From Pseudorhodoferax aquiterrae (lineage in GTDB: Bacteria > Pseudomonadota > Gammaproteobacteria > Burkholderiales > Burkholderiaceae_C), in assembly GCF_014652235.1 (NCBI RefSeq), contig NZ_BMYK01000031.1, positions 1-61,229 of the forward strand: DNA of 61,229 nucleotides. The letters are read 5' to 3'. The translations under genes and the position numbers were made by a program. This document shows positions 13,068 through 47,650 of the stretch, in pieces (positions within the stretch are counted from its first letter, which is position 1; the number at the start of each line of letters is the position of its first letter). Below the pieces are notes generated by a model that was not told the DNA's origin, made no database searches, and was given only the letters and a program-made list of their open reading frames with translations.

Positions 13068-13097
13068 GCGGAGGAGGGCGGCCGAAAGGGCCGCAAT

Positions 13098-20356: not shown

Positions 20357-22513
20357 CTAGTACAGGCGGATCGCCACGTCGAAGTGCCAGGTGCGTCGGA
20401 TCTCGACCACGTCGAAGTCGCGCGCGAGCCGGGGCGGGAACGCCGGGTAGTTGGCCTGGCCCTGCACGATGCCGCGCACGGCTTCGTCGATGGCTGCCAC
20501 GCCGCTGGAGCGCACGAAGGTGATGGATTCCACCGAGCCGTCGCGGCGTACCGCGACCGTCACGACGGGCGGCTGGTGCGGCTGCTGCAGCAGTGCGCGC
20601 ACTTGCTCGGTGGGCATGTTGAGCTCGATCTTGCGGCTCCAGGCGTCGCCGTACAGGCGCAGGTCCTCGTTCGGATCGCCGCGCGCGAGGTTGCGGCCGC
20701 GCCTGGCGTTGCTCCAGGACGAGGGCAGGTCGGGCGAAGACCGCGCGGCGGCCTCGGCGGCGGCGCGCTGGTCGGCCTCGGCGTTGAGCTGGCGGCCGAT
20801 CGCACGCAGGCGCTCCTCGCGCTGCGCCTCGTAGGCGCGCTCCGCCTCGCGTTTGGCGGCTTCGCGCTGGGCCGCTTCGTTGCCGGCCGAGGCCTGGCGC
20901 TGCGCTTCGGCCTGCTGGCGGGCCACGGCTTCCTGGGCGGCCTGGGCGCGGGCCGCTTCCTGACGCGCCGCTTCCTGGCGTGCGGCTTCCTGCTGCGCGG
21001 CGGCTTGCCGTGCGGTCTCGGCACGTTGGGTCTCTTGGCGCTCGGCCTCCTGTCTGGCCGCTTCGGCGCGTGCGGCCTCCTGCCGCGCGGCTTCGGCCCT
21101 GGCGCGTTCCTGGCGTGCTGCCTCCTGCTGCGCAGCGGCTTGCCGTGCGGCCTCGGCGCGTTGGGCCTCCTGGCGCTCGGCCTCCTGCCGGGCCGCTTCG
21201 GCGCGTGCGGCCTCTTGCCGCGCGGCTTCGGCCCTGGCGCGTTCCTGGCGTGCTGCCTCCTGCTGCGCAGCGGCTTGCCGTGCGGCTTCGGCGCGTTGGG
21301 CCTCCTGGCGCTCGGCCTCCTGCCGGGCCGCTTCGGTCCGCGCCGCCTCCTGGCGCGCGGCTTCAGCCTTGGCGCTTTCCTGGCGTGCGGCTTCTTGCTG
21401 CGCGGCGGCCTGTCGTGCGGCTTCCTGCCGCGAGGCCTCCTGGCGCGCGGTCTCGGCGCGCTCCGCCTCCTGGCGCAAGGCGTCCTGCCGCTCGGCCTCG
21501 GCCCTGGCGCGCTGCTGGCGTGCCGCATCCAGCGCAGCGGCCTGGCGTGCGGCTTCTTCCGCGGCGGCCTCTCGCGCGGCCTGCAGCCGTGCCGCTGCGG
21601 CGGTCCGGGACGCCTGTTCTGCGGCGAGCGACTGTTCGGCCGCCTCGCGTTCGATCGCCAGGCGGTCCGCCTCGGCCTGCGCCGCTTGCTGGCGGGCGGC
21701 TTCCAGCCGTGCCGCCTCGGCCCGGGTTGCTGCCTGGCGTTCGGCTTGCTGGCGCTCTTGCTCCGCCTCCTGTTCCGCCCTGTGCGCGGCCTCCCGTGCG
21801 GCGGCTTCCTGGCGCGCCGCCTCCTGCCGTGCCGCAGCCGCTCGGTCCGCCGCATGGCGCTCCTGTTCCAGGCGTTGCGCTTCGGCCTGTGCGGCCTGTT
21901 GGCGCGCGGCTTCGGCACGCAGGGCCGCCTCGCGGCTGGCTTGCGCCCGCTCGGCCTCGGCCTGCGCGACCTGGGCGCGCGCCGCAGCGAGGCGGGCCTC
22001 GCGCTCGGCTTGCTGGTGCGCCTCGGCGCGCTGCGCGGCTTGCTGCTCCGCGGCGTCCACGGAGGGCATTGCCAGCACGGCGGCACCGGGCGCCGGCGTG
22101 GCGGGCGCGGCAGGTGCAGGGCGGGGCGGCGGGCGGTCCACGGCCGCCGCCGCACCCGTGTCCGAAACGGCCGGCGCCGTCGCGGCCGGGGCCTCCTGGC
22201 GCGGCGCCGCGTCCGGTGCAAGCACCACGCGCAGCGTCGGCACTTCGCCGCGCCGCTCCTGCCAGGGCAGGCCCAGGCCCGGCAGGCCGAACTCGGCGCT
22301 GCCGAAGGTCAGGCTCAGCAGCAGGCCATGGACCAGCAGCGACCCCAGCACGCCACGCACCAGCCCTGCGCCGGGATGGCGCCGGGGCCAGCGCGGCGGC
22401 TGCGGGGCGATGGAGGGGGAATGCGCGGGGACCGGCACGTGCTCTGTGGGCGTCCGTGCCAGGCGCACGGGACTGTGGATCAGGCCGCGACTGTAGTCGC
22501 AGCCGGCCCGCAT
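20357..22513 (-). CDS. TonB/TolA-like protein with long Ala/Gln/Arg/Glu coiled coil
   Basis: This is a 718-residue protein with one transmembrane helix near residues 51-70 ([20 protein letters not shown]). A Pro/Ala segment follows, then about 450 residues of alanine-rich, highly charged helix and a C-terminal TonB-like domain ([40 protein letters not shown]). The architecture is that of TolA or a TonB paralogue spanning the periplasm. The coiled coil contains a 45-residue tandem repeat (see 20974-21425). No ExbB/ExbD genes are adjacent. The start at 22513 abuts a conserved 38-bp element; a GTG at 22438 is possible. Position beside the ethanol genes suggests energised uptake linked to them, but this is inferred. 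Confidence 0.75.
20974..21425 (-). repeat. 135-bp tandem repeat coding for a 45-aa helical unit
   Basis: About three copies with a period of 135 bp lie within the TonB/TolA-like gene; for example the block starting TGCTGCGC recurs at 20991 and 21126. The central copies (21097-21231 and 21232-21366) are almost identical and the outer ones more diverged. The unit encodes Ala-Glu-Ala-Ala-Arg-Gln-type heptad helix. Near-identity of the middle copies suggests recent duplication or gene conversion and likely length variation between strains. Confidence 0.75.
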
Positions 22514-22603: not shown

Positions 22604-23350
22604 ATGCGTCCGCTGTTGTTGCTGCTGTGCCTGCTCCACCCGCTGCTGCCCGTGCGCGCCGCGGGCGATCCGCTGCGCTCGCCCTTGTGGAACGGCGTGC
22701 GTGCGCGCCTGCTGGGCGACGCTGCCGTGGTCTTCGATGCGCGCGTGCGCGTGGCCGTTCCGCCCAGCGCCGAAGACCCGCTGGCCGTGCCCGTGGAGCT
22801 GCGCTTCGACGGTCTCGCCGATGTGGAGCAGGTGCGCGTGTTCGCCGACCTGAACCCGATCCCGCTGGTGCTGGACTACTGGCCGGACCGCGCAGGCGGG
22901 GCGCTGGCCCTGCGCATCAAGGTGGAGCAGTCGACGCCCGTGCGCGCAGCCGTGCGCACGCGTGGCGGCACCTGGCATGTGGGCGGCGCCTGGGTGGCGG
23001 CCGCGGGCGGCGGCTGCACCATGCCCAGCCAGGGCAGCGGCAACGCCGCCTGGCAGGAGCGCCTGGGCGAGGTCTCGGCGCGGCTGTGGCCGCGGCCCGC
23101 GGGCGCGAGCCGGCTGCGGCTGCGCGTCGTGCATCCGATGGACACCGGCCTGGCCGGCGGCATCCCGGTGTTCCATGTGGACCAGCTCACGCTGCGCGAT
23201 GCGGCGGGCCGCGCGCTGGCGCGGCTGCAACTGCACGAGCCCGTGGCCGAGAACCCGGTGCTGAGCCTGGACCTGCAGCACCGCGGCCCGGTGCACATCG
23301 ACGGGCGCGACACCCAGGGCAACCGGATCGCCGCGCGGGTCGTGCCATGA
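22604..23350 (+). CDS. Quinoprotein dehydrogenase-associated SoxYZ-like carrier
   Basis: This is a 248-residue exported protein: signal peptide MRPLLLLLCLLHPLLPVRA, then a SoxY-like half with the Gly-rich carrier motif AAAGGGCTMPSQG (Cys138) and a SoxZ-like C-terminal half (RLRVVHPMDTGLAGGIPVFH). Fused SoxYZ-like proteins of this kind occur next to quinoprotein dehydrogenases rather than in thiosulfate oxidation. Cys138 corresponds to the swinging-arm cysteine of SoxY. GGAAAGG precedes the start. Its stop overlaps the ATG of the metallohydrolase gene by 4 nt (ATGA), so the two are translationally coupled. The exact cargo is unknown. Confidence 0.87.
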   Translation: MRPLLLLLCLLHPLLPVRAAGDPLRSPLWNGVRARLLGDAAVVFDARVRVAVPPSAEDPLAVPVELRFDGLADVEQVRVFADLNPIPLVLDYWPDRAGGALALRIKVEQSTPVRAAVRTRGGTWHVGGAWVAAAGGGCTMPSQGSGNAAWQERLGEVSARLWPRPAGASRLRLRVVHPMDTGLAGGIPVFHVDQLTLRDAAGRALARLQLHEPVAENPVLSLDLQHRGPVHIDGRDTQGNRIAARVVP

Positions 23351-27578: not shown

Positions 27579-27658
27579 TCAAACCCCGAGTGCGGTCGCC
27601 GCCGCGAGGCCGGCGCGCGGGGCGCTGCCTCAAACCACGATTGCCGCTCGTGGTTTGA
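27579..27658. repeat. Iterons downstream of trfA, including a head-to-head pair
   Basis: Three copies of the iteron core lie here: TCAAACCCCGA (27579-27589, one mismatch), TCAAACCACGA (27630-27640) and its reverse complement TCGTGGTTTGA (27648-27658). The last two form an inverted repeat with 11-bp arms and a 7-nt spacer. This pair could bind an initiator dimer and might also act as a terminator-like hairpin at the 3' end of trfA. Confidence 0.75.
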
Positions 27659-27673
27659 AGCACATCACCGTAC

Positions 27674-28516
27674 TCAGGCCGCCAGCGGGCCCTCGACCGC
27701 CGGCATGTGCGGGCGGCGCAGCACATGCACGGTCTTGGTCTTGGTGTCGTAGATGAAGTCGGAGATCAGCCGGCGCTCCTTGAGCACGTCCAGCGCCTCC
27801 AGCAGGTTGCGGCGAAAGCCCGACAGGCAGGTGGCCGTCGACCCGCTGAGGCCGAACAGGGTCTCGACCTTGTACGGGAACGGTGTCTCGTGCGTGCTGA
27901 AGAAGCCGTAGATCCACTGCGCGAGCGGCGTCAGGCCCAGGCGCTCTTCGCCGTTGAGCAGCGTGAAGGCATCGGGCTGGAACAGCTCCAGGATGTTGGG
28001 ATCGAGGTAGAGCTTCCACTTCTCGCGCGACTTGGAGCCCGCGTCCGACCACTCCAGCCGCATGATCAGGTTGCCCGAGAAGCCCTTGCCGTTGGGCTTG
28101 TCGACCCAGACCGAGCCTTCGCGCATGCGGGCGATGGAGTCGCGCAGGCGCTTGTAGGTGTCGCCGCTGTTGCCCCAGCCGATGGCCACGCCGAGCGAAC
28201 TGGCCGAGACCTCGACCTGGTCGCCGATGGGCTGCATGCGCGCGAGGTGGACGACCTGCAGCCACACGGTCAGGTCGTCCTGGCGCAGCTCCTTGCCCGT
28301 GTAGCGGATCTCCTGCCCGGCCACCGAGACGATGACCTGGCGGTCGAAGCTGCGGCGTGGCTTGCGCTTGTCGGCGCAGGTGAACAGGGCCGAGCGGGCC
28401 AGGGCGTTGGGCGCGCCGCGCACGCGCTCGCCCCACAGGGGCAGCTGGGTCGGCCCGGCGAGCAGCATGCCGTGGGACTTGCGTTTGGACTTGGGAAGGA
28501 TGGCGAGGTCGGTCAT
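27674..28516 (-). CDS. trfA: TrfA-family plasmid replication initiator
   Basis: This is a 280-residue protein that follows the RK2 TrfA pattern over most of its length: LWGERVRGAPNALARSALF, EIRYTGKELRQDDLTVWLQV with HLARMQPIGDQV, and LTPLAQWIYGFFSTHETPFP with YKVETLFGLSGS. The winged-helix halves of an iteron-binding initiator are therefore present, and length matches the short RK2 form (TrfA-33). The frame extends to 28843, but conserved sequence begins near MTDLAILPKSKRK at 28516. TrfA binds iterons, melts the origin and loads DnaB helicase. Iterons lie on both sides of the gene. No parA/parB or mobilisation genes are visible nearby. Confidence 0.9.
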   Translation of the reverse strand: MTDLAILPKSKRKSHGMLLAGPTQLPLWGERVRGAPNALARSALFTCADKRKPRRSFDRQVIVSVAGQEIRYTGKELRQDDLTVWLQVVHLARMQPIGDQVEVSASSLGVAIGWGNSGDTYKRLRDSIARMREGSVWVDKPNGKGFSGNLIMRLEWSDAGSKSREKWKLYLDPNILELFQPDAFTLLNGEERLGLTPLAQWIYGFFSTHETPFPYKVETLFGLSGSTATCLSGFRRNLLEALDVLKERRLISDFIYDTKTKTVHVLRRPHMPAVEGPLAA

Positions 28517-28542
28517 CGGGCCGCGACGATAGCAGCCGGCTG

Positions 28543-28752
28543 TCGTCGCTTGAATCAGAAGTCTCGTGGTTTGAATCAAGCTGTTCGTGTCTTGACACTG
28601 CGGGCCGTCCCGCTCTGACAGGACTGGGGGACGCCGGCTGTCGTGGTTTGAGACAGGCCATGGTGCGCGGGGCTGGTTTGCATCGTGGTTTGAGGCAGCG
28701 CTCCAGTCGTGGTTTGACACCGGCTCGCGCGCCGGGCGCATTCGTGGTTTGA
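28543..28752 (-). repeat. Iteron array 1, seven copies
   Basis: The core TCGTGGTTTGA occurs exactly at 28564, 28641, 28683, 28707 and 28742 and in degenerate form at 28543 (TCGTCGCTTGA) and 28585 (TCGTGTCTTGA). All seven point the same way. Starts at 28543, 28564 and 28585 are 21 bp apart and 28641/28683 are 42 apart, i.e. two helical turns, as in plasmid iterons. Reading the other strand, the extended consensus is about TGNNTCAAACCACGANNG. The array lies upstream of trfA and may also autoregulate it. Confidence 0.85.
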
Positions 28753-28867
28753 AACAGCATCTTGTGCGCGTGCACGCGGGTCCCCGCGCGCCAGGAAACC
28801 ACCGGGGCCAGCCCCGGACCCCTTCCGCCATCGATTCCGGCAAGCCGGAACCGACGGCGGCTGCGTT

Positions 28868-28924
28868 TGTGGATTAGGAATTTGATTAATGAACAGGATT
28901 AGAGACCGATTAGAGAGTGATTAG
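28868..28924. other. AT-rich origin-unwinding region with GATTAG repeats and DnaA-like box
   Basis: In a GC-rich background this stretch is AT-rich and holds GATTAG at 28872, 28897, 28908 and 28919 and GATTAA at 28884, spaced 11-13 bp, like the 13-mers of a DNA unwinding element. TGTGGATTA (28868-28876) differs by one base from the reverse complement of the DnaA box TTATCCACA. It sits between two inverted iteron arrays. This is the expected layout of a theta-type iteron origin. Confidence 0.7.
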
Positions 28925-29007
28925 GGGGGCGCCGTTTCTTCTTCAAGTCATTGATCGGAAAGCGTTTTTCAGAAAGCCTGCAGACTCATTCCCCGAGTCG
29001 CGGCGCT

Positions 29008-29264
29008 TCAAGCGACGAATGGACCGGTTTCATTCCGCGAGGCGGGCGGTGTCATGCCACGTCAGCGACTGATTCACGCGCCGATGGGCGCTTTCGGCAG
29101 GCATGTGATTCAAGACCCGATACATGGCCTGCACTGCCATGCTTCAAACCACGAACTGACGTTCGGCCCGGCCTGCTTCATGCCACGACAGGCGCGTGGT
29201 GCCACCGTGCGTCAAACCACGACTGCGGCGTGGCTGCCGGCCAAGGCCGCGGATCGTGGTTTGA
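29008..29264 (+). repeat. Iteron array 2, opposite orientation
   Basis: The core TCAAACCACGA is exact at 29144 and 29212. Degenerate copies are at 29008 (TCAAGCGACGA), 29052 (TCATGCCACGT), 29110 (TCAAGACCCGA) and 29178 (TCATGCCACGA). Starts at 29110, 29144, 29178 and 29212 are exactly 34 bp apart. One copy in the other direction, TCGTGGTTTGA, closes the array at 29254-29264. With array 1 it brackets the AT-rich region symmetrically. No protein gene is seen between 28517 and 29342. Confidence 0.8.
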
Positions 29265-30545: not shown

Positions 30546-31040
30546 TCAGCGCACGCGCGCGGCGTAGCCGCTGGCGATCCAGGCCTCGGCCTTGTCCAGG
30601 TTGAGCTTGAAGTCGGCGGCCACCCGGGCCTGGCCCAGCGTCTCGCCCGATTCGTCCTGCGCGGTCAGCACCGCATAGGGGTACTCCTCGTCCGGCACGA
30701 TGGTCAGGGCCACGCGGATGCGCTCGGAGCCGGCGCCGACGGCGACCTCCTTGTGCAGGCGCGCATGCAGTTGCTGCTCGTGCCGGCGCAGCACCTCGCT
30801 GGCGGTCTTCACGAGCGTGTGGAAGGCCGGTGCGTCCAGCGGCTTGGGGTTCTTCTTGTCGCGGCCCATGGTCCAGGGCCCGACCAGGGCCGGCTCGGAC
30901 TCGCCGCGCAGCGTCATGGACACGGCCCAGCCGTCGTCGTCTTCGTTCTTGATGATCTCGGCGGTCCAGCGCTCGTCGCGCCACAAGCGGGCTTGCTGGA
31001 CCGGACCGTCCTCGTTCGGGGAAAACTCTTCGTCGTTCAT
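30546..31040 (-). CDS. Conserved hypothetical protein, 164 aa
   Basis: This is a soluble acidic protein with no signal peptide. It begins MNDEEFSPNEDGPVQQARLW, contains DDDGWAVSMTLRGESEPALVG, then FHTLVKTASEVLRRHEQQLHARL and IRVALTIVPDEEYPYAVLTA, and ends AEAWIASGYAARVR. The alternation of strands and one long helix suggests a small alpha/beta domain. No function is recognised. It appears to be a single-gene unit, convergent with the MFS gene. Confidence 0.7.
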   Translation of the reverse strand: MNDEEFSPNEDGPVQQARLWRDERWTAEIIKNEDDDGWAVSMTLRGESEPALVGPWTMGRDKKNPKPLDAPAFHTLVKTASEVLRRHEQQLHARLHKEVAVGAGSERIRVALTIVPDEEYPYAVLTAQDESGETLGQARVAADFKLNLDKAEAWIASGYAARVR

Positions 31041-31267
31041 CGCGGCATTGTCCGGCAGGGCTGGGCCGCATCCGCGCGCCAGGCGCGCGCATGACGCCGA
31101 TCAAGTTTGAGCAGGGTCAAGACATTTGTGTTGATTGCAACGCATGATTTGCAGCGCCGCCCACTGCGCCGCCGTCGCATCGAAGAACGCGGGGCGGCGA
31201 TCCTCGGGGCGCACCGCATTTCGAGGCGTGCCACGCAACGAACGCAGGCCGCTGGGGGGCTGAACAT
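31041..31267. other. Intergenic region, divergent promoters
   Basis: This is 227 bp without a convincing gene, between the divergent hypothetical gene and the GGDEF/EAL gene. The central part (31100-31150) is less GC-rich and includes TTTGAGCAGGGTCAAG and TTGATTGCAACGC, possible promoter elements, but no clear dyad or full sigma-70 pair could be defined. Confidence 0.4.
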
Positions 31268-33037
31268 TTGAACGAGGACTGCACACATGAACAAGCCGCG
31301 CTGGCCGACGCCGTGCGCGAGGTCGGCCGACTCAATGCCGCGCTGGACGCCCACGCCATCGTGGCCGTGACCGACGCGCGCGGCGTGATCCTCCGCGTGA
31401 ACGACAAGTTCTGCGCCGTCTCGCGCTACGCCCGCGAGGAACTGGTCGGCCGCACCCACCGCGTGGTCTGCTCCGGCCGGCATCCCGAGGGCTTCTTCGC
31501 CGACATGTGGCGCTGCATCGCCCGCGGCCAGGTCTGGAACGGCGAGATCTGCAACCGGGCCAAGGACGGTGCGCTGTACTGGGTCTCGACCACCATCGTG
31601 CCGTTCCTGGGGGCCGATGGCCGGCCCGAGCAGTACGTCGCCATCCGCACCGACATCACCCAGCGCAAGCAGGCCGAGGAGGAGGCCCAGCGCATGGCCT
31701 TCTTCGATCCGCTCACCGGCCTGCCCAACCGGCGGCTCATGCAGGACCGGCTGCAGCAGCTGCTGGGCCAGGCGCGCCGCCCCGGCCAGGCCGGCGCGCT
31801 GGTGCTGATCGACCTGGACAACTTCAAGGAAGTCAACGACACGCTGGGCCACGGCCAGGGCGACGCGCTGCTGCGGCTGGTGGCGCAGCGCCTGCTGTCC
31901 TGCGTGCGCCACAGCGACACCGTGGCGCGGCTCGGCGGCGACGAGTTCGTGCTGCTGCTGGGCGACCTCGGGCCCGACCTGCCCGCGGCCACGCTGCGTG
32001 CGGCCGACCTCGGCGAGAAGCTGCGCCGCATCCTGGAGCAGCCCTACTTCCTGGACGGCGGGCGCGTGCATGCCGCGCTGAGCGCCGGCGTGGTGCTGCT
32101 GCAGGGCGGCGAGGAGCGTGCGGACGAAGTGCTCAAGCAGGCCGACATGGCGCTCTACAAGGCCAAGGGCGCGGGCGGCAACCAGGTCTGCTTCTTCGAT
32201 CCGGCGCTGCAGGCCGACGTGAATGCGCGCGCCGGCCTGCTGGCCGACCTGCGCCAGGCCCAGGCGCGCGGTGAACTGCAGCTGTACTTCCAGCCCATCG
32301 TGCAGGCCGAGCGCCAGGTCAGCGGCTTCGAGGCGCTGCTGCGCTGGGTGCATCCGGTGCGCGGCCTGGTGTCGCCGGCCGAATTCATCCCGCTGGCCGA
32401 GCAGTCCGGCCTGATCCTGCCGATCGGGCAGTGGGTGCTGGACCAGGCCTGCGCGCAGCTGGCGCGCTGGGCGCGCGGACCGGCCACGCGGGCCTGGACG
32501 CTGGCCGTCAACGTCAGTGCGCGCCAGTTCCGCGACCAGGGCTTCGTGCCCAGCGTGCAGCGCGCGCTGGCCCGCAGCGGCGCCGACCCGCACCGGCTGC
32601 GCCTGGAGCTGACCGAGAGCATGCTGCACGAGGACCTGGACGCCACCATCGCGCGCGTCGCGGCCCTGCGCCGGCTCGGCGTGCGCTTCGCGCTGGACGA
32701 TTTCGGCACGGGCTACTCCTCGCTGAGCTACCTCAAGCGGCTGCCGCTGGACCAGCTCAAGATCGACAAGTCCTTCGTCGCGGAGATCACCCGCAACCGG
32801 GACGATGCCGCCATCGCGCGCACCATCGTCTCGCTGGCACGCAGCCTGCGCCTGCGCGTGGTGGCCGAGGGCGTGGAGACGGAAGGCCAGTTCGCCTTCC
32901 TGCGCCGGATCGGCTGCCACGGCTACCAGGGTTACCTGTTCGCCGCGCCGCGGCCGCTGCGCGACGCGATGCGCAGCGCGGGCGTGGCGCCCGAGGCGCT
33001 GCAGTGGCTGGACGGCGCGGCCGCGCCGCCCTCGTGA
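31268..33037 (+). CDS. PAS-GGDEF-EAL c-di-GMP turnover protein
   Basis: This is a 589-residue cytoplasmic protein. A PAS domain spans roughly residues 20-130 (DARGVILRVNDKFCAVSRYA, typical of PAS; a PAC-like ITQRKQAEEEAQ follows). Then comes GGDEF with an intact active site RLGGDEF (223-227) and an RxxD inhibitory site (RHSD) five residues before it, and an EAL domain with an intact FEALLRW (355-357), ELTESMLHED and DDFGTGYSS. It can therefore both make and degrade c-di-GMP on sequence grounds. The start is a TTG at 31268; no in-frame ATG gives a complete PAS domain. The PAS ligand is unknown. Confidence 0.88.
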   Translation: MNEDCTHEQAALADAVREVGRLNAALDAHAIVAVTDARGVILRVNDKFCAVSRYAREELVGRTHRVVCSGRHPEGFFADMWRCIARGQVWNGEICNRAKDGALYWVSTTIVPFLGADGRPEQYVAIRTDITQRKQAEEEAQRMAFFDPLTGLPNRRLMQDRLQQLLGQARRPGQAGALVLIDLDNFKEVNDTLGHGQGDALLRLVAQRLLSCVRHSDTVARLGGDEFVLLLGDLGPDLPAATLRAADLGEKLRRILEQPYFLDGGRVHAALSAGVVLLQGGEERADEVLKQADMALYKAKGAGGNQVCFFDPALQADVNARAGLLADLRQAQARGELQLYFQPIVQAERQVSGFEALLRWVHPVRGLVSPAEFIPLAEQSGLILPIGQWVLDQACAQLARWARGPATRAWTLAVNVSARQFRDQGFVPSVQRALARSGADPHRLRLELTESMLHEDLDATIARVAALRRLGVRFALDDFGTGYSSLSYLKRLPLDQLKIDKSFVAEITRNRDDAAIARTIVSLARSLRLRVVAEGVETEGQFAFLRRIGCHGYQGYLFAAPRPLRDAMRSAGVAPEALQWLDGAAAPPS

Positions 33038-33261
33038 TCGGAGCGAGGCCGCCACGCGCCGTGCAGGTACGGGACGTGGCCGTTGACGAAGCGCGGGGCC
33101 TGGCGCTCTGCCGGGTGCCGCCGCGAATCGGCCCGGCGAAGGCCTGCCTCATTCGCCGAGACGGCGGATGCGCCGGCACCGCGCTGCGCACTCTGGAGGG
33201 CCACGGCGGGCGCGCGTTCTGAGCTCTCGTCGAATGAGGCCGGCTGGTCGCCGCGCCATGT
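33038..33261. other. Gap between convergent genes
   Basis: This is 224 bp with no supported gene. A 10-bp inverted repeat, GCCTCATTCG (33146-33155) and CGAATGAGGC (33231-33240), brackets a GC-rich stretch of 75 bp. It may be a transcription-end structure for the flanking convergent genes or a decayed element; there is no T tract. Confidence 0.35.
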
Positions 33262-34449
33262 CTAGACGAGCTGCCAGGTCTTCCCGTTGAAGCGCTGCAG
33301 CTTCATGTACTCGACCACGCGGTAGTCGGTCGGCGAGGTCGTGATCAGGCTGCCGGGCAGCAGCGCGGGGTTGCGCCAGTCCTTGAGGTTGGCGGCCTGG
33401 CGCATGATGTTCTCGCGCGTGAGGTCGTCGCCGCACTGGCGCAGCACCTGCTCCAGGGTCAGCGCGATGGCCCAGCCCATGGTGTAGAGCGCATCGTTGA
33501 GGTCGGCGTCGGGCTGGTACTTCTTCATCGTGGCGACGAAGGGCGCGAGGTCCGGATCGTTGGCCCACTGCGGATCGGTGATGTCCTTGATGAAGCCGGC
33601 CGTGCGCACCTTGGTCGCGTTCTCCAGGCCTGCCGGCGCCAGCGTGGCGCTGACCGAGGCCGAGCCCAGGTGCAGGTAGATGTCGGGCTGCCAGCGCAGG
33701 TCGGCGGCCTTGCGGATGCTCTGGGCCGCGTGGCGCGCATAGGCGAACAGCATCAGCGTGTCCGCGCCTTTCTCCTTGATCGTGATGAGCTGCGAGTCCA
33801 CCGTCGGGTCGGTGGCCTGGAAGCTCTGGGACGCGACGATCTGCCTGGCCTTGTCGCCCAGGCCATCGGTCAGGCCGGCCAGCAGTTCCTTGCCGAAGTC
33901 GTCGTCCTGGTAGAGCACGCCGATCTTCGCGTCCGGGCGTTCGGCCAGGATGCTCTGGGCGTAAAAGCGCGCCTCGGCCCGCAGCGTGGGTTGCCAGCCC
34001 ATGGTCCAGGGGTACTGCGCGGGCTGGGCGAAGGTGTCCGAACCGGCCGAGATGAACAGCTGCGGCACCTTCTTCTGGTTCAGGTAGCGCCGCGTGCCCA
34101 CGTTCACCGAAGTGCCCAGCACGCCGAAGATCAGTGCCACCTCGTCCTGCTCGACGAGCTTGCGCGTGAGTTCCACGGCCTTGGGCGGCGCGTAGCCATC
34201 GTCGAGCGAGAGGAAGGTGATCCGGCGGCCGTTGATGCCGCCGTTGTCGTTGAGGAACTTGAAGTGCGCCGCTTCGGCACGGCCCAGCTGGGCATAGGCC
34301 GAGGCCGGCCCGCTGTAGGGCAGGGTCTGGCCGATGCGGATCTCCGTGTCGCTGGTGCCGGGGCCGTACTTCTTCGCCTGTGCCCGGCCCGCCAGCGGTG
34401 CCGTGGCGAGCGTGAGCACCAGGACGCGGCGCTGGATGGGGTGGTGCAT
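33262..34449 (-). CDS. ABC transporter substrate-binding protein (LivK/HAAT type)
   Basis: This is a 395-residue periplasmic receptor. The leader is MHHPIQRRVLVLTLATAPLAGRAQA, then IRIGQTLPYSGPASAYAQLG, INGRRITFLSLDDGYAPPKAVELTRKL, IFGVLGTSVN, KIGVLYQDDDFGKE and DALYTMGWAIALTLEQVLRQ. This is a type 1 periplasmic-binding fold of the branched-chain amino-acid/aromatic-acid class. Start 34449 is preferred over 34479 because of the leader and a preceding CGGAGA. It follows a tannase-like gene and pobA on the same strand, so the ligand may be an aromatic acid or ester. No permease or ATPase genes are adjacent. Confidence 0.87.
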   Translation of the reverse strand: MHHPIQRRVLVLTLATAPLAGRAQAKKYGPGTSDTEIRIGQTLPYSGPASAYAQLGRAEAAHFKFLNDNGGINGRRITFLSLDDGYAPPKAVELTRKLVEQDEVALIFGVLGTSVNVGTRRYLNQKKVPQLFISAGSDTFAQPAQYPWTMGWQPTLRAEARFYAQSILAERPDAKIGVLYQDDDFGKELLAGLTDGLGDKARQIVASQSFQATDPTVDSQLITIKEKGADTLMLFAYARHAAQSIRKAADLRWQPDIYLHLGSASVSATLAPAGLENATKVRTAGFIKDITDPQWANDPDLAPFVATMKKYQPDADLNDALYTMGWAIALTLEQVLRQCGDDLTRENIMRQAANLKDWRNPALLPGSLITTSPTDYRVVEYMKLQRFNGKTWQLV

Positions 34450-34539
34450 GTCGTCTCCGTTGTCGTTGGGAGCGGCCACGGTAGTGACCGCCGCTCGGAG
34501 ACGGCATCGTCCAAAGCGACTATTTTTCGTCGCTGGCGC

Positions 34540-36297
34540 TCAGTGGGCCACGCAGCTGAAGCTGGCGGCCGCCGCGCCGCTGCCCGTGCCGGTGTAGCGC
34601 GGGTACAGCGGGTACTGGCACATGGGCTTGGACGCGATCTCGGCGAACGGCGCGAGCGCGTTCCTGTTGCTCAGCGTGTACTGCGTGGCCGGCTTGACGC
34701 CTTTCTCCACCCAGTCTTCCACCACGGACAGCAGGTCCACGCGGCCCGGGATGCCGTAGCTGGGCGCGTTGGCCGCACCGGCCGCGACGCCGCCCGACGT
34801 GTGCGGCAGGCCGGTGGCGGCGTAGGCCGCGAAGAACTCGCCGACCTGGCCGGCGCCCATGCGCGCAACCACCGCGTCGAAGTAGTTCAGGCCGGTCAGC
34901 GGGCTTTGCGCCGTGTCGCTCATGTCCTCGCGCAGGATGAGCTTGCCGCCGCGCGCACGGAAGGCCGACAGGTCGGGGTTGGTGGCGTCCATCCACTGCG
35001 AGACCTGCAGCACGCGCTCGCGGAAATTGGCGGGCTCGTAGGTCAGCGGGTCGAAGGCGGCGTTCTGCGCGATGAAGTAGCGCACGTAGCCATTGCCGTA
35101 GCGGTAGACCTGGTTGATGCCGTTGGCCGTGGGCCCGTCGGTCGGCGGCGCCGTGCCCACCAGCCAGTTCGACCAGTTGCCGGCCAGGCCCTCGCCGCCG
35201 AAGGCGAAGCCGGCGTAGGCCTGCATGCCGTTGGCCACCGGGAAGCTGAACTGGTAGCCCGCATGCGCGGACGCGATCACCGCCAGCTGGGCGGTGGAGA
35301 AGCAGCTGGCGCCCTCGTCGGTGCCCGACGCGCAGGCCTTGGCCGCCAGCGCGGCCTCGGCCACGGGCTTGCAGGCCGCATAGTGGCTGACCACGCCGTC
35401 GGCGATGCCGTCCAGGCTGTCGCAGGCGGCCGTGACGGTGTCGTGCACGAGCTGCGTCTTGCCGCCCAGCCAAGCGCCCGGCGCACTCTGGCGGATGCCG
35501 CCGATCCAGTTGCCGAAGGTCTGCAGCCCGGTCCAGTTCATGACCGGGTCGATGGAGACGATGCCGTCGTAGTCGGCGGGGTAGCGCTGCGCCATCACCA
35601 TGGCCTCGCGCCCGCCTTCGGAGCCGCCCATGTAGTAGCTGCGCAGGGGGCGCTTGCCGTAGTAGCGCTGGCCCAGTTCGACGGCCACGTCGTGCGTCTT
35701 CTTGTAGGCCGCGTAGGCGAAGTTGACCAGCGCCTCCTGGTTCAACGCGAAGGCGTAGGCTTCCACGCCGGCCTGGTTCTGGTGGCCCGAGTCCGTGCCC
35801 GTGGTCATGTAGCCGCGCGTGATGGGCCGCGGCACGTCGGGCGGTGCGTTGCGGCTGGCGTCCAGGCCCGTGACCAGCGATCCGTTGTAGCCCGAGCCGC
35901 CGAACTGCAGCTTCTTGCCGTTCCAGCTGCTGGGCAGGTTGAGTTGGGTGTTGATCAGCGGGGCCGCGGGGTCCACGGGCTTGATCTCGATGAGCAGTTC
36001 GCAGTACTCGGGCGTGCCGAGCACGGTGGCGGTGCCGCCAGCGTTGGGCGCATCGGCCACCGCGGCCTTGAGCGTGGCGGACTTGACGGTGGCGCCCGTC
36101 GTCGGCTCGCCGATGCTGCCGGCTTGCACCGACTGGCCGGCCATCGCCGCGCAGGCGCTGGCGGGACTGGCCACCACCAGCGGTGTGGCGAAGCTGTCGT
36201 CGTCGTCGCTGCCGCCGCAGGCGGTGAGGGTCGCCGCGATGGCGAGGGCGGCGAGGGTCTGGCGCTGCGCGGGCAGCGCCGATGGCAATGTCTGCAT
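34540..36297 (-). CDS. Tannase/feruloyl esterase family hydrolase, lipoprotein
   Basis: This is a 585-residue exported esterase with a lipobox at Cys27 (LTACGGS). The fold shows LPSSWNGKKLQFGGSGYNG, the nucleophile GGSEGGRE (Ser226) followed by MAQRYPADYDGIVSIDP, and a C-terminal region with CQYPLYPRY. Many Cys and Asp residues of the calcium-binding lid are kept (CSTAQLAVI-type block near 340). The family hydrolyses aromatic esters such as gallates, feruloyl esters and MHET. AGGAGA precedes the ATG. It sits between pobA and the substrate receptor in one orientation, 96 and 90 nt apart, so it probably supplies an aromatic acid for ring hydroxylation. Its exact ester is unknown. Confidence 0.87.
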   Translation of the reverse strand: MQTLPSALPAQRQTLAALAIAATLTACGGSDDDDSFATPLVVASPASACAAMAGQSVQAGSIGEPTTGATVKSATLKAAVADAPNAGGTATVLGTPEYCELLIEIKPVDPAAPLINTQLNLPSSWNGKKLQFGGSGYNGSLVTGLDASRNAPPDVPRPITRGYMTTGTDSGHQNQAGVEAYAFALNQEALVNFAYAAYKKTHDVAVELGQRYYGKRPLRSYYMGGSEGGREAMVMAQRYPADYDGIVSIDPVMNWTGLQTFGNWIGGIRQSAPGAWLGGKTQLVHDTVTAACDSLDGIADGVVSHYAACKPVAEAALAAKACASGTDEGASCFSTAQLAVIASAHAGYQFSFPVANGMQAYAGFAFGGEGLAGNWSNWLVGTAPPTDGPTANGINQVYRYGNGYVRYFIAQNAAFDPLTYEPANFRERVLQVSQWMDATNPDLSAFRARGGKLILREDMSDTAQSPLTGLNYFDAVVARMGAGQVGEFFAAYAATGLPHTSGGVAAGAANAPSYGIPGRVDLLSVVEDWVEKGVKPATQYTLSNRNALAPFAEIASKPMCQYPLYPRYTGTGSGAAAASFSCVAH

Positions 36298-36393
36298 CTT
36301 GTCTCCTGGTGGGTTGTGCGTTCTGACTCAGACGGTGGCGCGTGGCGTTTCGTGCGTTGGCAGTCCTTTCATCGATGGGTGTTAAGTGGTGCC

Positions 36394-37690
<1,297 letters not shown>

Positions 37691-37716
37691 GTACTGCGGA
37701 ACTTTCCGCCTCCTCC

Positions 37717-38475
37717 ATGAGCATCGCCAAAGCAGACCTCATCGAAGGCATGGCCAAGGGCATGGCCGTGCTGGAGAGCTTCGACACCGAGCGCCAGCGT
37801 CTGAACGCCACGCTGGCCGCGCAGCGTGCCGGCCTCACGCGCGCCGCGGCCAGGCGCCATCTGCTCACGCTGGCCCACCTGGGCTATCTGGAAACGGACG
37901 GCAGCTACTTTTGGCTGGCGCCCAAGGTGCTGCGCTTTTCGGGCAGCTACCTGGCTTCGGCACGGCTGCCGCGCGCGATCCAGCCCACGCTGAACCGGCT
38001 CGCGGCGCAGACCGGCGAATCCTTCTCCGCGGTGGTGCGCGACGGCGACGAGGTCGTCATCGTGGCGCGCAGCGGCACCTTGCGCATGCTGGCCTATGGC
38101 CTGCACCTGGGCGCGCGGCTGCCGCTGCACGCCACCTCCACGGGCCGCGTGCTGCTGGCGGCCGAGACGCGCGCGGCCTTCAGCGCCTGGATGAAGGGCA
38201 GGGCGCTGGCCCGGCTGACCGTGCACACGGTGACCGAGGCCAGGCGCTTTCGCGAACTCATCGACGAGGTGCGCCGCCAGGACTACTGCGTGGCCATCGA
38301 GGAGCACGAACTTGCCGTGCACGCGCTGGCCGTGCCGCTGCGCAACATGCAGGGCCGCACCGTGGCCGCGCTCAACGTGGTGGCCTCGCCCGCGCGCACC
38401 GGGCGCGAGGCCATGGAGCGCGAACTGCTGCCGGCCATGCTGGAGGCGGCGCGGGAGCTGCGCGGGCTGTTGTAG
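37717..38475 (+). CDS. pobR: IclR family regulator, PobR/PcaR type
   Basis: This is a 252-residue IclR protein. Residues 10-65 form the winged HTH (KGMAVLESFDTERQRLNATL, LTRAAARRHLLTLAHLGYL). The effector domain shows ESFSAVVRDGDEVVIVARSG, LPLHATSTGRVLLA and a C-terminal PLRNMQGRTVAALNVVASP. This resembles activators of 4-hydroxybenzoate and protocatechuate catabolism. It diverges from pobA and likely activates it in response to 4-hydroxybenzoate. The name is inferred from family and position; the effector is not proven by sequence. Confidence 0.83.
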   Translation: MSIAKADLIEGMAKGMAVLESFDTERQRLNATLAAQRAGLTRAAARRHLLTLAHLGYLETDGSYFWLAPKVLRFSGSYLASARLPRAIQPTLNRLAAQTGESFSAVVRDGDEVVIVARSGTLRMLAYGLHLGARLPLHATSTGRVLLAAETRAAFSAWMKGRALARLTVHTVTEARRFRELIDEVRRQDYCVAIEEHELAVHALAVPLRNMQGRTVAALNVVASPARTGREAMERELLPAMLEAARELRGLL

Positions 38476-38487
38476 CGCGCTTGTTCG

Positions 38488-38503
38488 CTTGACCGCGGTC
38501 AAG
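38488..38503. promoter_or_regulatory. Perfect 16-bp palindrome before the phospholipase D gene
   Basis: CTTGACCGCGGTCAAG is self-complementary and lies 37 nt before the ATG of the phospholipase D-like gene. It contains TTGAC-N4-GTCAA, close to the FNR/ANR form TTGAT-N4-ATCAA, and TAGGAT (38505-38510) follows at once. It may be a transcription-factor site; identity of the factor is open. Confidence 0.45.
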
Positions 38504-38540
38504 CTAGGATGCTCACCGCCCCCTTCTGCGCAGCCGAACC

Positions 38541-40112
38541 ATGACCACCCCAAGATCGCTGCTGCTGGCCTGCCTGCTCGCCTGGTGCGTGGCCTGGCTC
38601 ACAGGCTGTGCGGTGCTGCCGGCGCGCCAGGCACCGCCGCCGACGCACGCGCTGACCGAGGTGGGCGCCACGCAGCTGGCGCGGGTGGCGGCGGCCAGCA
38701 CACCGGCGCAGGCCATGGGCAAGTCCGGCCTGCGCATGCTGCCGGAAGGCCCGTTCTCGCTCGATGCGCGGCTGGCGCTGGCGGCCAGCGCCGAGAAGTC
38801 GCTGGACCTGCAGTACTACCAGTTGCAGAGCGACAGCGTGGGCTTCCGGTTGCTCCGCGCGCTGCGCGATGCGGCGGCGCGCGGCGTGCGCGTGCGCCTG
38901 CTCGTGGACGACTTCTACACGGCGGGGCAGGACGAACTGTTCGGCACGCTGGCCGCCCACCCCAACGTCGAGGTCCGTCTGTTCAACCCGCTGCCAGAGC
39001 GCAAGGGCAGCTTCGTGGGCCGCTTCATCGGCTCCGCATCGGTCTTCTCGCGCATCAACCACCGCATGCACAACAAGCTGTTCATCGCCGACAACAGCAT
39101 GTCGGTCGCGGGCGGGCGCAATATCGGCGACGAGTACTTCATGCAGAGCGAGACGGCGAACTTCATCGACGCCGACGTGCTGGCCACCGGACCCGTGGTG
39201 CGCGAACAGTCCGCCGCGTTCGACCTGTACTGGAACAGCGCCCATGTCTGGCCGATCGAGCAGGTGGTGCCACCGCTGCTGGCGCCCGAGGAGGCGCGCC
39301 GGCGCTTCGACGCCATCGTCGGGCCCGAGGCGCCGCCGCTCGAAGTGCGTCCGCACGACGTGCTGGGCAAGACACCCGTGCACCGGCAACTCGCCGAGGG
39401 CCGGCTGGACCTGATGTTCGCCAAGGCCAGCGTGCTCGTCGACGACCCCGACAAGATCACGCGCCTCGACGCCGACGCGCGGCTCGCGGGCAGCGTGACG
39501 CAGCATGTGCTGGACCTCATGGACTCGGCGCGCTCGCAGCTGCTCATCATCTCCCCGTACTTCATTCCCGGGCGGCTGGGCATGCAGCGCCTGGGCCGCG
39601 CGGTGGGCAACGGCATCCGCGTGACGATCTACACCAACTCGCTGAGTTCCACCGACGAGCCGCTGGTCTACCTGGGCTATGCGCGCTACCGAGACGACCT
39701 GCTCAAGCTCGGCTTCGAGCTCTACGAGGTGGCGCCGCACCGCGGCAACACCACGCACCTGGGTGCCTTCGGCACCTCGATCTCGCGGCTGCACGCCAAG
39801 ATCTCGGTGGTGGACGACGACCGCATCTTCGTCGGATCGATGAACCTGGACAGCCGTTCGGCCCGCATCAACACCGAGATCGGTTTGGTGGTCGAGAGCG
39901 CGGAGGTCGTGCGCGAATTCCGCCGGCTGATCCCGGCGCGCGGCTTCCAGTCGGCCTACCGGCTGCGGCTGTCCGACAGCGGCCGCGTGGAGTGGCTGGA
40001 GCCGCGCGAGGACGGCGGCTTCACCGTGCACCACGACAACCCGGGGACCAACTGGATCGCCGAGCTCTGGAACTGGTTCAGTTCGCTGTTCGTCGGGGAG
40101 GAGCAGCTCTGA
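38541..40112 (+). CDS. Phospholipase D family protein, cardiolipin synthase C-like
   Basis: This is a 523-residue lipoprotein-type enzyme with a lipobox at Cys23 (LTGCAVL). Two HKD motifs are complete: HRMHNKLFIADNSMSVAGGR and RLHAKISVVDDDRIFVGSMN. Length and the LPERKGSFVGRFIGS and NRSLD-like features resemble ClsC/YmdC. ClsC makes cardiolipin from phosphatidylglycerol and phosphatidylethanolamine, usually with a small YmdB-type partner, which is absent here. The gene follows pobR by 65 nt; a palindrome in that gap suggests independent control. It converges with the diguanylate cyclase gene. Confidence 0.85.
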   Translation: MTTPRSLLLACLLAWCVAWLTGCAVLPARQAPPPTHALTEVGATQLARVAAASTPAQAMGKSGLRMLPEGPFSLDARLALAASAEKSLDLQYYQLQSDSVGFRLLRALRDAAARGVRVRLLVDDFYTAGQDELFGTLAAHPNVEVRLFNPLPERKGSFVGRFIGSASVFSRINHRMHNKLFIADNSMSVAGGRNIGDEYFMQSETANFIDADVLATGPVVREQSAAFDLYWNSAHVWPIEQVVPPLLAPEEARRRFDAIVGPEAPPLEVRPHDVLGKTPVHRQLAEGRLDLMFAKASVLVDDPDKITRLDADARLAGSVTQHVLDLMDSARSQLLIISPYFIPGRLGMQRLGRAVGNGIRVTIYTNSLSSTDEPLVYLGYARYRDDLLKLGFELYEVAPHRGNTTHLGAFGTSISRLHAKISVVDDDRIFVGSMNLDSRSARINTEIGLVVESAEVVREFRRLIPARGFQSAYRLRLSDSGRVEWLEPREDGGFTVHHDNPGTNWIAELWNWFSSLFVGEEQL

Positions 40113-40150
40113 TGCTTCAGCGCTGGTGCAGCGCCGGCGAACAAGACGCA

Positions 40151-42010
40151 TCAGGGCCGTTCCGGTCCCATGCCCGTGGCGGCGAAGGCACAGCGCCGAC
40201 GCCCGGCCTCCTTGGCTTCGTACATGGCGGCGTCGGCCGCGGCCAGGAGTTCCTGTTCGTCCGTGCCGAGCACGGCGCTCAGCGCCACGCCGATGCTGCA
40301 GCCCACCGTGACCGGTGTCCCGTCCTCGAGCGCGATGGGCCGTTCCACGGCTTCCATGCAACGCTGCAGCACCGGACGCACGTCCTGCGCGTCGGTGACG
40401 CCCGAGAGGATCCAGGCGAATTCGTCACCGCCCAGGCGGGCCACGGTGTCGTTGGCGCGCAGTTCGTTGTGCAGGCGCAGGCCCACCGCGCGCAAGACCG
40501 CGTCGCCGGCCTCGTGGCCGTGCCTGTCGTTGACGGGCTTGAAGCCGTCCAGGTCCATGTAGCAGACCGCGAAGGCCTGGCCCGACCGGCGGGCCTGGGC
40601 CGCGCTGCGCCGCAAGTGGTCCTCGAACAGACGCCGGTTGGCCAGGCCGGTCAGTGCATCGTGCAGGGCCAGGTGCTGGGCCTGCTCCTCGCTGTGCTTG
40701 AGCGCGTCGATGTCCACGATCATCCAGATCGATTCGGTGTCGTTGAGGGCCGCGCCGCTCAGATCGACCCACAGTGCGCCGCCGGTGCGGGTCGCGAGCT
40801 TGAGCTGGGTGCGAAAGCGTCCGTCGCGCCGCAGCGCGGGCTCGGCCGCGCGCCAGGTCTCCTCGAAGGCGGCGTCGCTGGGGTACAGGATGCGCGTGGA
40901 CTGGCCGGTCAGGCCGGCGGGCGCATGGCCGAGCAGGCGCTCCACCGCGCGGTTGGCCCACAGGATCCGGCGGTCCTGGGCGCGCACCATGCCGATCATG
41001 TCGTTGTCCAGGATCAGGCTCTGCTGGCGCGCCAGACGCGAGGCGTAGGTGGTGATCGCCGCTTGGCGGCGGTGCTGCAGCAGCATGAAGCCGAACACCG
41101 CGACCACCAGGCCGAAGGTGGCACCGGCGATGCTCCAGTGCCGCCGCGCGCTGCTGGCCCATGGCGCGAGGTAGTTCTCCGTCCCCAGGCCGACCAGCAC
41201 GGTCAGGGGGTAGCCCGCGACCCGGCGGTAGACCGTGATGCGCTCGACCTGGTCGAGCGCGGTGGGCGTGATGTACCAGCCGGCCTCGCGGCGCTGGGCG
41301 AAGGCACGCTGCAGTTCCGCTGACACCTCACGCCCGCCCAGGCCGCGTGTGGAGTGCGGCTCGGCGGCCGAGTAGCGCGCTGCCAGAGCCAGCGTGTCCG
41401 TGCGCAGCGAGATGGCGCCGCTTTCGCCGACCGACATCTGGGCGAACAGGCGCTGGAAATGGCTGGCCAGCAGGACCGCGTAGACCACACCACCGAACTC
41501 CCCGGACCGGGACTGCAGCCGCAATGCCACGACGATGCCCCATTCCTGCGTGAGCCGGCTGAACACCGGCTCGGAGACGATGGCGCCCGGTGCAGCACGC
41601 GCCTGCACGAAGTAGTCGCGGTCGCCCACGAAGACCGGCGCGCTGCCCTGCGGCAGGCCGACCACCACGGCACCTGCCGCATCCGTGGCGCGCAGGGCGC
41701 TCGCGAACGGCACCAGCGCGTGCTGCTCCGCGACGGCGGCACGCAGACGCTCGGCCGCAGGACGGGTGTCGGTCTGGTGCCGGTAGTCCAGGGCGACGCT
41801 GGTCAGCGCGTTCTCCACCAGGCGCAATTCGGAAGCGATCTCGATGCCGAGCGCATGGGCCACGTTGTCGGCGGCATCCCTTGCACGGGCCAGGTCGCTG
41901 CGCCGGGCCGCGTCCAGGCTGGCCCAGGTCGCCGCGAACAGGGCCAGGCCGATCAGCAGCGCGCCCACGGCGGTCCACACCGCGGTCTGCCACAGCGGAC
42001 GCGTGGGCAT
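40151..42010 (-). CDS. Membrane diguanylate cyclase with dCACHE-like sensor and PAS
   Basis: This is a 619-residue protein. An N-terminal TM helix (TAVWTAVGALLIGLALFAAT), a periplasmic sensor of about 250 residues with DYFVQARAAPGAIVSEPVFS (dCACHE-like), a second TM (HWSIAGATFGLVVAVFGFML), and a PAS domain (MIGMVRAQDRRILWANRAVE) precede a GGDEF domain. Its active site is RLGGDEF (GGDEF 527-531), with an RxxD inhibitory site (RAND) in front. It should make c-di-GMP from GTP on a periplasmic cue. The GTG at 42031 is an alternative start. It has no EAL domain, unlike the protein at 31268. Confidence 0.87.
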   Translation of the reverse strand: MPTRPLWQTAVWTAVGALLIGLALFAATWASLDAARRSDLARARDAADNVAHALGIEIASELRLVENALTSVALDYRHQTDTRPAAERLRAAVAEQHALVPFASALRATDAAGAVVVGLPQGSAPVFVGDRDYFVQARAAPGAIVSEPVFSRLTQEWGIVVALRLQSRSGEFGGVVYAVLLASHFQRLFAQMSVGESGAISLRTDTLALAARYSAAEPHSTRGLGGREVSAELQRAFAQRREAGWYITPTALDQVERITVYRRVAGYPLTVLVGLGTENYLAPWASSARRHWSIAGATFGLVVAVFGFMLLQHRRQAAITTYASRLARQQSLILDNDMIGMVRAQDRRILWANRAVERLLGHAPAGLTGQSTRILYPSDAAFEETWRAAEPALRRDGRFRTQLKLATRTGGALWVDLSGAALNDTESIWMIVDIDALKHSEEQAQHLALHDALTGLANRRLFEDHLRRSAAQARRSGQAFAVCYMDLDGFKPVNDRHGHEAGDAVLRAVGLRLHNELRANDTVARLGGDEFAWILSGVTDAQDVRPVLQRCMEAVERPIALEDGTPVTVGCSIGVALSAVLGTDEQELLAAADAAMYEAKEAGRRRCAFAATGMGPERP

Positions 42011-42044
42011 CCGGACCAGCCTGTCTACCACCGTCGGGTTCCTC

Positions 42045-42271
42045 TCAGAACGTGTGAATGAACCGATCGCGCCCACGACGGGGTGCGGCGGGCCGCAGGC
42101 GAAGGCGCGGGCCGCCGCCCGGGCTCGTGCCCGGGCAAGGACCGCAACGCCCGCATGCGGCCTGGCGCGCCCCGGCCCGAAGGGCGAGGCCCCGGGCGCA
42201 ACGATCATGATGGAAACGGCTGCTCATCGGGGGCCTCGCGTGGGTGTGAGCGGTTCGTTCACACGTTCTCA
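42045..42271. repeat. Possible small element with about 30-bp imperfect terminal inverted repeats
   Basis: The left end (from 42045) contains CAGAACGTGTGAATGAACCG; the right end (up to 42271), read in reverse complement, contains GAGAACGTGTGAACGAACCG. The first 21 bp match at 19 positions, and similarity continues weakly for about 12 bp inward. The interior of roughly 160 bp is GC-rich and encodes nothing convincing. No target duplication could be recognised. It lies in the 495-bp divergent gap upstream of the diguanylate cyclase and the helicase. It may be a MITE-like element or a large regulatory hairpin. Confidence 0.5.
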
Positions 42272-42505
42272 GCAGGGCACCGGCTGCGAACGGGTTGACC
42301 CGGTGCAAAACTTGCGGCGCACTTTATCCGCAAAACAGCTGAAATTCCGGCTTGCGAAAAGCGGACTTGCGGACGGGATGCGGTGCGTGCGGCGGCTCGG
42401 CGCCGAGGTCCGTACCGACCGTGGGTCGGGTACCCCCTACACTTGCGACCCGCGCCTGTGGCCGCAGCCCCTGGCGGCGGCGCAGCGCTTGTGCAGTCCC
42501 CGTCC

Positions 42506-44707: not shown

Positions 44708-44786
44708 GCGCCGCGCCGGGCCGCCCCAAGCAAGCTCGCTCCCGCCTGGCGGGACAGGCCGTAGGCCGAAGGGTGCCCCAGTGACT

Positions 44787-45410: not shown

Positions 45411-45421
45411 GGTTGGGCGTC

Positions 45422-45877: not shown

Positions 45878-45904
45878 GCGCGAAGCATAGCCGCGCACAG
45901 CGGC

Positions 45905-47517: not shown

Positions 47518-47573
47518 GTTGTTTGTCTCCTGCGGCAAAAACGGCCCGGTGCCGAGGTTAGAATGCCGCCCTT

Positions 47574-47650
<77 letters not shown>

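Follow-up and report, generated by a model that had tools for sequence, protein, structure and literature searches.

In the genome of Pseudorhodoferax aquiterrae we identified what looks like a complete replication origin of plasmid type, consisting of a trfA initiator gene and a cluster of iterons, which has very probably been captured by the main chromosome. The analysed DNA, referred to here as the window, is one entire contig of 61,229 bp (G000:C31) from a genome of 7.11 Mb in 94 contigs. Judged from its sequence, the locus is probably an oriV-trfA replicon of the rep_cluster_1449 kind (MOB-suite) which lies in the terminus region, is inherited vertically under strong purifying selection and would still be able to initiate replication. 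Near-identical trfA genes were found in Pseudorhodoferax sp. Leaf265 (G002) and Leaf274 (G005), P. soli DSM 21634 (G003) and DE0202 (G004), all assigned to the genus of the window by genome search. Thus, five of the six Pseudorhodoferax genomes carry the locus, and one (G001) does not. The comparison covers this one genus; the trfA contigs range from 61 to 673 kb and none of them is a closed replicon. The DE0202 record (L030, NZ_VEDO01000007.1) was deposited as Variovorax boronicumulans and clusters with Pseudorhodoferax; the deposited name is probably wrong.

The trfA gene and its iterons

The trfA gene is located at positions 27674 to 28516 on the minus strand and encodes a protein of 280 amino acids. 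The ATG at 28516 was chosen as start in this analysis, since longer in-frame starts run through the iterons. The assignment to the TrfA family made in the initial annotation was confirmed by a match to PF07042 (E-value 3.8e-30), which spans profile positions 20-270 of 282 and thereby most of the protein. Amino acid identity between the window and the four relatives is 97.5-98.9%. The motif QLPLW (residues 24-28) is invariant in the five species and also occurs in plasmid TrfA proteins; it presumably resembles the clamp-binding motif of RK2 TrfA. An AlphaFold model reached a mean pLDDT of 34.6, too low for reading winged-helix domains, and no sequence relative was detected in the PDB up to an E-value of 1.

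A TrfA tree with 29 rows places the five Pseudorhodoferax proteins in a single clade on a long stem. This clade groups with rep_cluster_1449 and two further rows with a support of 91/88, which is under the strict mark. Within the family, some TrfA match was found in 47 of 399 genomes, a number that includes the five Pseudorhodoferax genomes, and the distribution is otherwise scattered. DE0202 carries a second TrfA homologue (41% amino acid identity; G004:C33:166847-167494, L027) on its dnaA contig, about 19 kb from dnaA.

Ten exact copies of the iteron TCAAACCACGA are located between 27630 and 29264, within about 1.6 kb around trfA, and no further exact copy was found anywhere in the 7.11 Mb genome. 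With up to two mismatches the iteron occurs at 15 places versus 5.4 expected, a number reached by 0 of 100 shuffles. For the degenerate copies, a matrix was built solely from 23 Burkholderia plasmid iterons and applied with a threshold of 8. At the window locus it recovered the 10 exact sites together with 7 degenerate ones, 17 in total (in simple letter shuffles 0.6 on average and 3 at most), in agreement with the ten exact and about seven degenerate copies counted before. The other four species have 19, 18, 18 and 17 sites (shuffle means below 1, largest count 5). An iteron-pair pattern searched over 399 genomes of the order matched solely the window's own genome, in a draw that held no other Pseudorhodoferax.

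Three iterons are located 3' of trfA (27579..27658), namely 27579-27589 (plus strand, one mismatch), 27630-27640 (plus) and 27648-27658 (minus), and the same trio is present in all five species. Just upstream of trfA follows a block of seven sites on the minus strand (28543..28752), starting at 28543, 28564, 28585, 28641, 28683, 28707 and 28742, of which five are exact and two degenerate. On the other side of the origin core, phased degenerate sites follow each other in 22-bp steps on the plus strand (28986..29084). Those at 28986, 29008 and 29030 exceed the matrix threshold in the window, the site at 29052 is just under it, and the one at 29074 is far under it, with only TCA...CGA kept. The distal iterons (29110..29222, plus strand) comprise two exact sites at 29144 and 29212, a degenerate one at 29178 and a degenerate one at 29110 that is below threshold in the window. 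The last iteron (29254..29264) points in the opposite direction on the minus strand and is kept within one mismatch in five species. The spacings of 21, 42 and 34 bp described earlier are present. The uniform orientation proposed for each side did not hold, as the left-hand sites 27579 and 27630 are on the plus strand, 27648 and those from 28543 to 28752 on the minus strand, and the right-hand site 29254 also on the minus strand. A cluster of repeated putative initiator sites thus adjoins the initiator gene, the arrangement by which an oriV is recognised. Two observations named beforehand as speaking against an origin here were not made: the window's genome has no exact repeat outside the locus, and all four other trfA-bearing genomes of the genus have the repeats.

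The same elements could also form a domesticated regulator, in which TrfA and its iterons act as a transcription circuit on trfA itself and possibly on other genes, with no origin activity. Iterons precede trfA and neighbouring genes, TrfA is highly conserved and, in Pseudomonas aeruginosa, a plasmid TrfA is reported to repress a promoter of the host to which it binds (PMC12691604). We nevertheless regard this explanation as unlikely. No regulon is visible: beyond the lack of exact iterons elsewhere in the window's genome, only zero to two one-mismatch sites were found per trfA contig stretch examined. In addition, a bare regulator would have no need of the unwinding block, the IHF-like site and the phased array, which are conserved with plasmid spacing; this favours an origin.

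The putative origin core

The presumed DNA unwinding element is located at 28872..28924 on the plus strand. It consists of five GATTAG/GATTAA repeats (GATTAR) within 53 bp, starting at 28872, 28884, 28897, 28908 and 28919, so that the AT-rich block with a repeat every 11-13 bp was correctly described before. Its AT content is 63-68% in the five loci, in a window with 72% GC. An IHF-like site, GATCAATGACTTG, follows at 28944..28956 on the minus strand, 25 bp past the start of the last GATTAG. It matches what we take to be the IHF consensus, and it was found at this +25 position in all five chromosomal and both plasmid loci examined, at a background of about 0.001 per 60 bp.

Between iterons and AT block lies a block of 67 bp with two hairpins (28797..28863). 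Folded as DNA on the trfA-sense strand its stability is unexceptional (z -1.4; 18 of 200 shuffles fold as well). The long stem contains G-T wobbles on the trfA-sense strand at places where the plus strand shows mismatches, which hints at a role of this block as RNA or single strand. In two Burkholderia plasmids a GGGGCAAGCCCC hairpin is located close to the origin.

A DnaA-like box had also been assigned to the core. Using a motif which we assume to be that of the DnaA box, a one-mismatch site, TAATCCACA, is indeed present and overlaps a GATTAG repeat. It is missing at the same place in the four other species, and we therefore rejected this window-specific site as a conserved part of the origin. 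Both Burkholderia plasmids have a one-mismatch DnaA box at +10, whereas the chromosomal loci are without a conserved one. DnaA boxes are not required by every iteron origin in every host.

Relationship to Burkholderia plasmids

A TrfA match at an E-value up to 1e-5 was found in 654 plasmid records, each with less than 60% identity. The closest reach 45-46%. For the comparison of iteron geometry, the plasmids pTY921B (NZ_CP155791) and p81s2p (NZ_CP100302), one from B. cenocepacia and one from B. glumae, both belonging to rep_cluster_1449, were used. Both carry the same iteron and a TrfA with 45-46% identical amino acids. Common to plasmids and chromosome is the order of inverted block, GATTAR block, IHF-like site (+25) and phased direct iterons; at the position of the unwinding block the plasmids carry GATTAAAGAAGnATTAAAGAAGATTAG. 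Counted from the start of the last GATTAG, the direct sites are located at +67, +89, +111 and +133 in the chromosomes and at +68, +90 and +112 in both plasmids, with +133 also present in p81s2p. The first three phased sites and the IHF-like site are thus within 1 bp of those of the plasmids, which together with the same iteron points to rep_cluster_1449. The initial annotation had proposed a distinct initiator/iteron system; this had to be given up, as had the idea of a new iteron family, because the Burkholderia plasmids carry an identical iteron in the same core layout.

The phased slots are more degenerate in the chromosomes than in the plasmids. Scores under 8 were obtained for +133 in the window (7.8), for +67 in Leaf265 (7.8), P. 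soli (7.8) and Leaf274 (4.3) and for +89 in P. soli (4.0), and a fifth slot at +155 has a low score in every chromosomal locus. The surroundings of the core differ as well. In the plasmids trfA follows behind the direct block, and a ParA gene is located upstream, to which p81s2p adds a ParB gene. Each plasmid stretch analysed has 8 AAACCACGA copies, and all of them are upstream of trfA. The chromosomal trfA is found on the opposite flank and is read away from the core, no par genes were found among the nearby genes scanned, and only here do the seven-site block and the hairpin block stand between core and trfA and three iterons behind trfA.

Since existing Burkholderia plasmids carry an identical iteron, the locus might also act as a plasmid-exclusion device, with chromosomal iterons and TrfA pairing with or starving incoming plasmids of the same iteron as a built-in incompatibility. 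The number of matrix sites would fit, being 17-19 per chromosomal locus compared with 11 and 12 in the two plasmids. However, TrfA shares only 45-46% of its residues with the plasmid protein, iterons alone would suffice for such a function, and the conserved unwinding block would be unexplained. Furthermore, the six genomes of the genus gave no sign of such a plasmid: beyond the locus they contain just two TrfA matches, with 41% and 31% identity, both in DE0202. We consider exclusion a quite unlikely explanation, somewhat less probable than the regulator.

Location in the chromosome

The initial annotation had offered two readings: either a second replicon has its origin here, or a chromosome has captured the origin of a plasmid. 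The evidence favours capture. A pattern presumed to represent dif occurs once per genome in all six genomes. In four of the five trfA genomes it is located on the trfA contig, at a distance from trfA of 196 kb (G002), 134 kb (G003), 117 kb (G004) and 138 kb (G005). P. aquiterrae has it on a contig other than the window, and G001 on contig C21. The motifs that we take to be KOPS (GGGNAGGG) converge on one point on the trfA contigs of P. soli and Leaf274, where the dif-like 28-mer is found. They converge on the dif-like site in DE0202 too, and the fetched Leaf265 contig starts at this site.

Summed over these four genomes, KOPS pointing toward dif outnumber the opposite ones by 107:10 between trfA and dif, and by 57:9 past trfA on the far side. 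This polarity runs through trfA, which indicates that over evolutionary time the forks came from elsewhere and that the locus is not the main origin. The lack of a skew change, named in the initial annotation as evidence against an origin here, is therefore what we found; it excludes a main origin and does not show that the locus never fires. A captured origin can, in view of the missing polarity flip, be only secondary, rare or conditional. In the window, KOPS are few and less clear (7 toward higher coordinates, 4 opposite), with the majority running in the direction expected from the collinear DE0202 contig. As the dif-like site of P. aquiterrae is on another contig, placement of the window in the terminus region is inferred from the collinear relatives. 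Neither GC skew nor the skew of fourfold sites or 8-mers showed a clear signal, not even in the surroundings of dnaA, and for this reason polarity was read from KOPS alone. In Leaf274 the polarity of the KOPS changes about 50 kb away from dnaA and is mixed past that point (G005:C1:374001-774000, L108-L127), so that in this genus the actual oriC may not be located directly at dnaA.

DnaA (PF08299) is single in all six genomes and never on the trfA contig. Because dif and dnaA are both single, the contigs carrying them presumably belong to one replicon. One ParB_N match each was found in Leaf265 and Leaf274, on other contigs, compared with 5 in G000, 4 in G001, 4 in G003 and 3 in G004. One of those in P. 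soli is weak (E-value 5.7e-7) and shares the contig with trfA, at a distance of 514 kb. These additional matches qualify the argument against a second replicon. On the window contig no ParB_N match was obtained, and no par or transfer genes were detected among the nearby genes scanned. The tRNA-Pro(TGG) gene at 47574..47650 (plus strand), outside the origin, serves as a marker of the surrounding chromosomal block: in all five trfA genomes its best match falls on the contig that carries trfA, in G001 it falls within this same block, and matches elsewhere are weaker (75-88%). At 22604-23350 the window encodes a protein that resembles a SoxYZ fusion, with a SoxY match and, behind it, a SoxZ match under the threshold.

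TrfA and iterons are plasmid hallmarks, no trfA contig is closed and dnaA is on another contig in each genome, all of which would also be compatible with the origin of a second chromosome or megaplasmid. The single dif-like site, the KOPS polarity, the single ParB match in Leaf265 and Leaf274, the tRNA-Pro(TGG) block and its trfA-less counterpart in G001 make this very improbable, and the same findings support capture by the main chromosome.

A location of trfA near dif is no general rule. Elsewhere in the family, where 7 out of 12 genomes examined contained the dif pattern, such a rule fails: trfA is 1.4 Mb from the dif-like site in G083, weak TrfA matches are far from dif in G355 and G356, and TrfA and dif pattern are on different contigs in G177, G225 and G409. 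The G083 gene (G083:C1:1039624-1040274, L011) is accompanied by CATCTGTCA-type repeats in a single-contig genome of 4.5 Mb and represents a chromosomal TrfA of a different lineage. A weak TrfA-like frame (E-value 1.8e-11) was observed in another single-contig genome, 142 kb from its dif-like site (G331:C1:904921-905475).

Conservation and selection

The dN/dS values of trfA against the window are 0.074 (Leaf274), 0.023 (Leaf265), 0.035 (P. soli) and 0.045 (DE0202), and the lowest values of orthologous neighbours are 0.125, 0.103, 0.086 and 0.078. In each of the four comparisons trfA is below every compared orthologue. Including trfA, 15 genes were tried, not all of them present in each genome, and G001 was left out as it has no trfA. 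Non-orthologues (g34540 in P. soli, g18588 in Leaf274) and a short match of 56 residues (g34540 in Leaf265) had been dropped beforehand. The dS values of trfA, between 0.1 and 0.24, are at the low end of those of its neighbours, which fits inheritance with the chromosome.

Noncoding parts of the locus are conserved as well. Across five species 81% of the iteron columns, 74% of the AT block and 91% of the hairpin block are invariant, compared with 28% of the remainder; when the iteron mask was shifted 625 times, the value rose to 76% at most. The lack of par and transfer genes among those scanned nearby would agree with an integrated plasmid of which only a neutral or decaying remainder is left. 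However, dN/dS values of 0.02-0.07 over a dS of 0.1-0.24 and the iteron conservation fit neutral drift poorly, and we give this explanation the least credit of all.

In G001, contig C6 matches the window well over 30546 to 47650 and in a patchier way at 12169-13108 (82%) and, at about 72-74% and in repeat-rich sequence, at 20359-22501. Positions 22501 and 30546, separated by 8.0 kb in the window, have counterparts in G001 at a distance of 1.7 kb from each other, and there is no trfA between these. On 106 kb of G001 no iteron within one mismatch was detected, and there is one two-mismatch site. G001 is the most distant of the six genomes in nearly all genes compared. The locus was either gained by the ancestor of the five species or lost in G001. 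The common block in the relatives and its trfA-less counterpart in G001 are best read as vertical inheritance.

Possible function of the probably captured origin

From this anatomy and from RK2-type plasmids the following mechanism can be drawn. TrfA monomers would bind the iterons, and IHF would bend the DNA between iteron array and AT block. The GATTAR block would then melt and TrfA would bind one of its strands, after which helicase and clamp would be loaded, the latter perhaps through QLPLW. Iterons before and behind trfA might set the dose by autorepression and origin pairing. The terminus region would be the place where an extra pair of forks disturbs least.

Plasmid Rep proteins including TrfA are described to bind one strand of the unwinding block together with the iterons, and the repeats of this block to be required for origin activity (PMC4081077). 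With the preserved register of the Pseudorhodoferax locus, this argues for an intact DNA-opening machine. The absence of a polarity flip and of a conserved DnaA box, the degraded phased sites, the rearrangement of initiator and core and the genome without the locus (one of six) count against an origin. We infer that the origin can probably still initiate; that it really fires, at least under some condition, is less likely than not.

One origin per chromosome is the usual teaching for bacteria. It is possible, if only tentatively proposed, that the Pseudorhodoferax chromosome has two origins by design, oriC with DnaA and the captured TrfA/iteron origin near the opposite pole, the latter firing at least conditionally, e.g., if forks started at oriC do not arrive at the terminus, and being selected across species. 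If several species keep a small plasmid origin functional within the terminus region, this would be a natural test of whether a second origin is tolerated or useful, and of the means by which it is held in check. Should it not fire, the locus would show selection on a plasmid initiator in another role.

Comparison with known systems

With the oriV-TrfA system of RK2 and IncP-1 plasmids the locus shares a PF07042 initiator, iterons and a repeated AT-rich unwinding block. The iteron TCAAACCACGA presumably differs from that of RK2. Two IncP-like loci of the family have CACTTGAGG-type repeats, unlike the iteron described here, and a TrfA with about 31-32% amino acid identity. As chromids are characterised in PMC6090056, the Pseudorhodoferax locus does not fit this class: neither a separate replicon nor an own partition system nor polarity diverging at the origin was found.

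Two origins on one bacterial chromosome are known from fusions. According to PMC6284228, both origins are active in the fused chromosome of Vibrio cholerae NSCV1, and in NSCV2 ori2 is silent in the fused chromosome but functional in isolation. Two Agrobacterium isolates with fused chromosomes, and hence two origins on one chromosome, are described in PMC12153318. As presented there, these are strain-level fusions of whole chromosomes, whereas here several species share a small origin, the polarity does not flip, and two of the genomes lack a second ParB. NSCV2 is a warning that an intact second origin may be silent. In the haloarchaeon Haloferax, the integrated plasmid origin ori-pHV4 is used within the main chromosome, as stated in PMC7174701. 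It likewise is a plasmid origin inside a chromosome, but, as described there, belongs to an archaeon, a laboratory isolate, with three further origins. A description of the Pseudorhodoferax trfA/iteron locus was not found in the literature searched. Compared with the Burkholderia plasmids, on which the iteron system itself already exists, it is the chromosomal setting and the preservation of a plasmid-type origin that are new.
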